64,000 bases of DNA from Lepus europaeus (taxonomy: Eukaryota > Chordata > Mammalia > Lagomorpha > Leporidae). Both the position numbers and the translations under genes were made by a program. Position 1 is the first letter of the stretch, and each line of letters begins with the position of its first letter. Under the pieces are notes generated by a model. That model was not told where the DNA came from and searched no databases. It was given only the letters and a program-made list of their open reading frames with translations. Shown here one piece after another: positions 39,660-39,908 of the stretch. The stretch lies in assembly GCF_033115175.1 (NCBI RefSeq), contig NC_084845.1, forward strand, positions 932,501 to 996,500. Reading direction: 5' to 3'.

Positions 39660-39908
39660 ATTAAAAGTAATATTCTTTTTTAGCAATGACAATTTCACAC
39701 AGATCTGTTTGGTAACTTTCAAAAAATCTTTTAACCAGAATTATGTATAAAGCAGAGCCTCTTCCACTTCTTGCTGGATGGAAAAGGTGACGTTCTGCAG
39801 CACTCTGGACGTCTTGCTCAATCCCTGTCCAGGCTGCGGCGTCTTCAGGATATACAGCAAATAGTCCTAAGCCAGCATATGCACATAGGCAAACTCGCAG
39901 TCACTCAT
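39660..39908 (-). pseudogene. BCL2A1: Captured host BCL2A1 fragment (stop codons, internal deletion)
   Basis: BCL2A1 (A1/BFL-1) is an NF-kB-induced anti-apoptotic BCL2-family protein. From an ATG at 39906-39908 the minus strand reads MSDCEFAYVHMLA, then TAG, then DYLLYILKTPQPG and SKTSRVLQNVTFSIQQEVE, which aligns codon for codon with the BCL2A1 N-terminus (the TAG falls where the host protein has Gln, one C-to-T change). After a TAA at 39741-39743, the same frame continues with a C-terminal-like segment, FLKVTKQICVKLSLLK (39678-39725), matching the end of BCL2A1. About 100 codons between these ends are missing, including the BH3, BH1 and most of the BH2 region. An acceptor-like ccttttag lies upstream (ends at 39970). 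As it stands it cannot encode a survival protein. The alternative of chance similarity is very unlikely with two matched ends in order. Confidence 0.88.

Follow-up and report, generated by a model that had tools for sequence, protein, structure and literature searches.

A BCL2A1-bearing provirus in the hare genome

The region analysed here, hereafter the window, is a stretch of 64,000 nucleotides from the genome of the hare Lepus europaeus (C23:932501-996500 of assembly G000, which comprises 2.93 Gb in 649 contigs). Its minus strand contains, from 43723 to 38405, a 5.3-kb gammaretrovirus-like provirus that carries a decayed copy of the host survival gene BCL2A1 (Table 1). The two long terminal repeats (LTRs) of this provirus are identical (525/525 nt, 100%), as a preliminary description of the window had stated, and the pentanucleotide attag is duplicated at both flanks. 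Only scraps of the viral coding content are left, and the leader shows partial homology to the leaders of the full-length carriers described below.

Translation of the minus strand from 39908 to 39666 gives, in a single frame, a BCL2A1-like N-terminus, a TAG at codon 14, a TAA and a C-terminal motif. The best match of the stop-free piece of 41 codons among PDB chains was human BCL2A1 (E 8e-11), and all six matches obtained up to E 1 were BCL2A1. Compared as DNA with exon 1 of the hare host gene, the piece shows 92.4% identity across 157 nt, far beyond chance. The similarity to BCL2A1 is thus strong, and both translation and PDB matches agree with the preliminary description that an ATG at 39908 opens the N-terminus of this protein and that its C-terminus follows in the same frame. 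The host-derived stretch is wider than first noted, extending on the minus strand from ~40007, in the 5′ untranslated region (5′UTR), to ~39672, and contains one internal deletion of ~284 nt (junction 39752/39751). The copy is dead, as had been claimed from its two stop codons and its deletion, and no open Bcl-2 domain frame with BH regions was detected in it.

Several features place the element among class I endogenous retroviruses (ERVs): LTRs of the TG...CA type with a short target duplication, a primer binding site, which we take to be of the tRNA-Pro type, a polypurine tract and, in relatives of the window element, Gag MA, RNase H and env of the murine leukaemia virus (MLV) type. The three coding pieces were searched separately, in loci other than the window. 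Gag MA of the carrier L063 matched the Gag_MA profile (E 5e-36) and a solved MA chain (E 1e-28), and the L063 homologue of the window pol piece (L063:4528-4827) matched MLV-type RNase H chains (best E 1e-4). In the window, the RNase H-like pol piece itself had no Pfam match, and neither did the three stop-free pieces downstream of BCL2A1, up to E 10. Of the pol-like and env-like scraps first proposed to border BCL2A1, the latter were not confirmed. A target duplication of 4 or 5 bp, matching at each site on its own, was found at 11 of the 15 loci displayed, with the boundary shifted by 1-3 bases in C44, C27, C636 and C73; the flanks of C83 repeat those of C57, and no clear duplication could be made out at C63, C455 and C18. 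The 15 loci have 14 different flanks. The carriers are ~4-5.5 kb long and show only Gag MA and RNase H remnants of the viral genes. Gag-bearing relatives are many: a search for Gag p30 returned 1454 candidates in the genome, the best 150 of which were scored, all above the cut-off.

Full-length carriers of BCL2A1

The host BCL2A1 gene is located on C13 and consists of exon 1 (codons 1-140), a GT...AG intron of 9329 bp and exon 2; the encoded protein has 175 residues. A search of the genome with the human protein produced 146 rows (150/150 candidates scored, so perhaps a lower bound). Once the two host exons and four distant Bcl-2-family rows were set aside, at least 140 BCL2A1-like carrier rows remained. 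The exon-exon joint without intron, searched with up to three mismatches, is present at 12 places in the genome, with one mismatch to the pattern in each case (reversed-pattern control: 0), and the same 12 copies appear in the protein search with the codons beyond 140 joined on. All 12 lie inside elements in which the parts follow each other as in the window (pol remnant, cargo, 3′ part, LTR); this order was displayed for seven loci, and the remaining five agree with L041 at 99.6-100% identity across 3.5 kb. Judged by sequence and flanks, they correspond to about seven insertions: C57/C83/C279, C44, C48, C63, C168, C455 and C636. The first is one site multiplied; C57 and C83, the two of its contigs for which flanks were compared, share them. 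An eighth insertion, on C27, contains exon 1 only. Identity to host exon 1 ranges from 94.8 to 97.2% across the seven.

The preliminary description had suggested that intact relatives may exist, and an intact frame of 176 codons is indeed found at C57/C83/C279. Its product is 95% identical to the host protein: in the C57 copy, residues 31-129 are identical, and seven substitutions and one inserted residue are located elsewhere. The frame (P0001) matches the full PF00452 profile (E 3e-26) and thus encodes an open Bcl-2 domain. NCBI lists a 'bcl-2-related protein A1-like [Lepus europaeus]' with 95% identity to host BCL2A1; the Lepus europaeus proteins named 'BCL2A1-like' or 'CEBPE-like' there include P0001, P0040 and P0121-P0129, of which at least P0001 and P0040 probably belong to the provirus-bearing contigs C57 and C27. 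The C57 copy (L063) is embedded in a 372-bp satellite, and the intact carrier recurs at spacings of 12.7 and 15.3 kb on C57 and of 12.7 kb on C83.

Across the hare genome, BCL2A1 is therefore the best match of a host segment that is intronless and flanked by LTRs in many copies, which supports the proposal that an endogenous gammaretrovirus-like lineage of a lagomorph captured this gene. The segment is not a feature of the locus independent of the LTR element, since the two occur together at over 100 places, and the flanks, where displayed, differ between nearly all loci.

A single capture in the place of env

The 5′ breakpoint of the host-derived segment lies 95 nt upstream of the host ATG in all ten carriers compared (C57, C168, C63, C44, C636, C455, C48, C27, the window and L082; L084 was excluded). 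The 3′ breakpoint lies ~6 nt past the stop codon in six of the seven full-length insertions, the end being lost in C636. The viral sequence beside the capture joints is common to the carriers. The shared 5′ breakpoint indicates that one mRNA capture, with exact loss of the intron, founded the BCL2A1 family.

The two LTRs of an insertion are 98.3-99.8% identical in six full-length insertions, 96.1% in C63 (three mismatches and one 19-nt gap), 99.6% in C27 and 100% in the window as well as in five of five further deleted carriers tested. Between the seven insertions, the LTRs are only 70-95% alike, and 66-85% identical to the window LTR; The cargo thus persisted as LTRs diverged or were exchanged.

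Some loci without a BCL2A1 match also have LTRs of the C57 type, at 92-95% identity. In two of the three sister elements fetched, the same viral flanks enclose an open frame in this slot, of 704 codons in L081 and 686 codons in L083. A 200-residue piece of the L081 frame corresponds to env (TLV_coat, E 1e-77; the L083 frame was outside this search). BCL2A1 therefore replaced env and occupies its slot, which corrects the earlier placing beside env scraps. An intronless host coding sequence replacing viral genes is what characterizes a transducing retrovirus. L081 and L083 measure only ~5.2 kb from LTR to LTR despite a frame of ~700 codons, so that gag-pol must be mostly lacking in them.

A second cargo, CEBPE

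The third sister element (L082, G000:C9:85913400-85915900) contains 83 nt of BCL2A1 5′UTR, 88% identical to the host and with the same breakpoint, joined to an open frame of 220 codons with a C/EBP-type bZIP domain. L086 likewise begins with BCL2A1 5′UTR (85% over 60 nt). The bZIP profile PF07716 is matched with E 2e-9 in L086 and 2.5e-5 in L082, and NCBI names relatives CEBPE-like in the case of the hare and CEBPE for other vertebrates. Two host CEBPE exons are located on C13. In the cargo, the intron is gone at the exact joint and one stretch is duplicated in frame; it comprises 222 codons, the 5′UTR-derived start and the duplication included, compared with 281 residues in several other mammals, and seems from this comparison to be without the N-terminal part of the gene. 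Among the best 150 of 199 candidates in the genome, 37 of 38 near-full-length CEBPE frames (query residues 1-3 to at least 215) contain no stop. Pairs of C57-type LTRs flank the CEBPE match at four of five loci checked, whereas 8 kb separate the match from the upstream LTR at the remaining one. The position of CEBPE behind the BCL2A1 5′UTR indicates that it was built onto a BCL2A1 carrier by two captures in series: one lineage serially captured two haematopoietic genes. The preliminary description does not mention this second gene.

Frames with the bZIP part only, 38-57% identical and open over 133-227 codons, were also observed on C185, C3, C6, C1, C10, C9, C303, C23, C24 and C27. These more distant frames may represent an older or separate capture.

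The deleted subfamily

The window copy belongs to a secondary, deleted subfamily. Its deletion joint is present at 123 places in the genome (at most two mismatches; control 0). Codon 14 reads TAG in 42 of 61 ungapped copies of codons 1-52, and these 42 are from short-form loci. The other 19 have CAG; 16 of these are from full-length loci, some fetched twice, and three are the short forms L055-L057. Since these three short forms still read CAG, the deletion preceded the stop at codon 14. Additional internal deletions were found in L077, L078 and L080. Of the 40 matches to the youngest LTR type that were scored (98-100% identical; 1382 candidates), 39 have a BCL2A1 match within 6 kb, at 20 loci, which points to a recent burst of the cargo-dead form.

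Splicing was considered as the origin of the short-form deletion and was rejected, the deleted stretch having no GT start. L078 (C82:309600-312900) contains two BCL2A1-bearing elements that stand back to back, oppositely oriented; the LTR between them is 92% like that of the window.

Possible selection on the captured genes

In codons 1-140 of BCL2A1 from the seven insertions, 21 of 37 variable sites are synonymous, compared with 12.5 expected (mutation-class test, p 0.003; near-duplicates L042-L046 of L041, and L054, without exon 2, were not counted). For CEBPE, the argument draws its strength from how many frames are open, and these frames are not mutually independent.

A number of observations weigh against selected cargoes or a single capture. 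Without C48, the count falls to 12 of 23 synonymous sites versus 7.8 expected (p 0.053), and the dead 52-codon copies show 9 of 20 versus 6.8 (p 0.20). The naive pN/pS ratio is low in both sets, 0.21 in live and 0.25-0.38 in dead copies, so that the mutation-class test can only be suggestive. The absence of stops from the first 140 codons is insignificant (P 0.39). One CEBPE pair gave 28 of 76 synonymous differences versus 22.7 expected (p 0.11), with no stop seen where 2.1 were expected (P 0.12). Just one locus, duplicated and situated in satellite DNA, has an intact BCL2A1 frame; the frame is 153 or 154 codons long in five of the seven insertions (stop at 154/155) and 161 in one (stop at 162). 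Finally, the upstream flanks of C48, the earliest branch, and of C63 match the others only over the ~17 nt leading up to the joint. The substitution pattern suggests purifying selection on BCL2A1 but does not prove it.

Other approaches were abandoned. The naive dN/dS ratio was dropped as proof of selection because dead copies gave a similar value. A flank-based spectrum test (p 1e-4 for live copies, 0.008 for live copies without C48, 0.096 for dead copies) was set aside because the upstream alignment is unreliable. Comparison with flanks is confounded by recombination, both for live (pS 0.071, pN 0.015, flanks 0.047-0.052) and for dead copies (pS 0.059, pN 0.017, flanks 0.037-0.051). In IQ-TREE codon models, the free model beat omega 1 at six fixed kappas (1-6), with a gap still shrinking at kappa 6 (8.2 log units), and these models were set aside.

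Origin of the family and alternative explanations

Transducing retroviruses arise when read-through or co-packaged host mRNA is joined to the viral genome by template switching; env and most of gag-pol are lost and the defective virus is rescued by a helper. We consider it very probable that the hare family has such an origin: a gammaretrovirus of the hare lineage would have acquired spliced host BCL2A1 mRNA through read-through and template switching, at the cost of env and most of gag-pol. Helper gammaretroviruses would have carried the resulting replication-defective virus, which entered the germ line. Helpers are plausible, given the number of Gag p30 candidates. BCL2A1 would have been expressed from a subgenomic RNA spliced between the donor-like site of the leader and the acceptor-like site of the capture joint; it could have blocked BH3-driven death of the infected cell, probably a blood cell. 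One descendant swapped BCL2A1 for an apparently truncated C/EBP-epsilon, keeping the BCL2A1 5′UTR, and deleted, cargo-independent forms of the window type were then amplified in the germ line to more than 100 copies.

Truncated C/EBP forms act as differentiation blockers, and by analogy the CEBPE cargo could have had this role. We tentatively extend the scenario to an exchangeable cargo slot at the place of env, filled by BCL2A1 and then by truncated C/EBP-epsilon, both under selection, in an acutely transforming family with serial capture; we hold this extension to be quite possible, short of probable. C/EBP-epsilon would probably block myeloid differentiation, a surviving and differentiation-arrested blood precursor would help the virus, and the lineage would have become endogenous while staying active until recently. 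Over-expression of Bcl2a1a is anti-apoptotic and leads to leukaemia or lymphoma in mice, according to one report (PMC3484072). This leukaemogenicity in mouse blood cells is in keeping with an advantage for an infected blood cell.

A somewhat doubtful but real possibility is that the captured genes were irrelevant to the virus, being products of chance template switches that hitch-hiked neutrally with a successful non-autonomous LTR element. The commonest and youngest carriers do have a dead BCL2A1, and the dead-copy control weakens the selection signal. However, seven insertions whose LTRs are so dissimilar all retain at least 153 open codons, synonymous changes exceed expectation in BCL2A1 (21/37 versus 12.5), near-full-length CEBPE frames are almost all stop-free (37/38 among the best 150 of 199 candidates), and the presence of two blood-cell genes in one slot would be a coincidence under neutrality.

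Adoption of the intact, tandemly multiplied BCL2A1 locus as a new host gene appears improbable. It would agree with six near-identical copies on three contigs, one of them seen in the 372-bp satellite, and with annotation of the locus as a gene by NCBI, but satellite amplification accounts for the copy number and the annotation rests on similarity. Very improbable, finally, is the landing of a LINE-made processed pseudogene of BCL2A1 in one old provirus and its spread as a passenger: the copies are intronless, as expected for such a pseudogene, and LINE-1-like frames adjoin the window element, but the joints read around the BCL2A1 piece show no poly(A) tail or flanking duplication, the 3′ joint lies ~6 nt past the stop, the insert occupies the env position of sister elements and all 12 exon-joined copies are inside elements.

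Other features of the window

The features of the provirus are listed in Table 1. Open frames resembling LINE-1 (long interspersed nuclear element 1) directly adjoin the provirus on the plus strand (44224-47810); we take them to be long pieces of ORF2. An open frame of 323 codons (34421-35392, plus strand) resembles a vomeronasal type 1 receptor. An Rfam scan of the window at gathering cut-offs gave no match.

Table 1. Parts of the BCL2A1-bearing provirus, in window coordinates
Feature	Position	Strand	Basis
5′ LTR, TG...CA, 525 nt	43199..43723	-	Identity to 3′ LTR and flank attag
Primer binding site	43175..43192	-	Read in sequence
AGGTAAGT in leader, splice-donor-like	43131..43138	-	Putative function
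Leader with imperfect 74-nt tandem repeats	42661..42863	-	Repeat reading
RNase H-like pol remnant	40222..40560	-	Homologue in L063
Pyrimidine-rich stretch and CAG/G, splice-acceptor-like, at 5′ capture breakpoint	39996..40020	-	Putative function
Captured host BCL2A1 5′UTR	39909..40007	-	80.6% over 93 nt to host; alignment
Captured BCL2A1 codons 1-52, TAG at codon 14	39752..39908	-	Translation; DNA and protein comparison
Captured C-terminal segment of BCL2A1, from host exon 2, beyond ~284-nt internal deletion	39672..39751	-	Translation; alignment
Polypurine tract	38930..38947	-	Read in sequence
3′ LTR, 525 nt	38405..38929	-	LTR comparison

Comparison with known gene-capturing viruses

In Rous sarcoma virus and the oncogene-carrying mouse gammaretroviruses, a spliced host coding region takes the place of viral genes, and a helper is usually needed. 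In the hare, the likely mechanism is template switching of the kind seen in these acutely transforming retroviruses, with mobilisation by helpers and then decay during the amplification of defective forms. Acutely transforming retroviruses are tumour or laboratory isolates, whereas the hare family is endogenous. Herpesviruses and poxviruses also carry captured homologues of BCL2-family survival genes; these are large DNA viruses with strongly diverged homologues, in contrast to the hare cargo, which is 95% identical to the host protein.

The closest published parallel among the sources seen is a koala retrovirus (KoRV) provirus with a transduced BCL2L1, a low-coverage, somatic or exogenous provirus in one animal (PMC7910482). 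As in the hare, a gammaretrovirus took a BCL2-family survival gene with exactly joined exons, and env was almost entirely replaced; most of gag and pol were replaced too in KoRV (PMC7910482). The hare family differs from this case in that the gene is BCL2A1, the copies are in a germ-line reference assembly at more than 100 places, and sister elements contain a second cargo, CEBPE. The closest endogenous cases among these sources are crocodilian ERVs that carry host mRNA of KIT-ligand or nectin3 in several copies, with purifying selection reported (PMC4299795). They are likewise endogenous with a cargo of host mRNA, and env gave way to nectin3, but they belong to other virus classes and carry other genes, and the excerpted text describes no replacement of one cargo by another (PMC4299795). 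Among the open-licence PMC papers listed in our searches, none dealt with a hare ERV or with a BCL2A1-bearing one.

The BCL2A1 remnant of the window thus belongs to a family of transducing gammaretroviruses that became endogenous and took up cargo serially, and the preliminary description was right in its core. One practical consequence is that the frames listed for the hare as 'BCL2A1-like' and 'CEBPE-like' include proviral ones. Retroviruses with an oncogene have mostly been found in single tumours and are lost when the animal dies. The hare genome preserves env-bearing sisters, a first cargo, a second cargo built on the 5′UTR of the first and a graded decay series, so that capture, cargo exchange, selection and decay become testable within one species. 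The capture of BCL2A1 by this family is a natural record of a virus taking host genes and spreading them through the genome.
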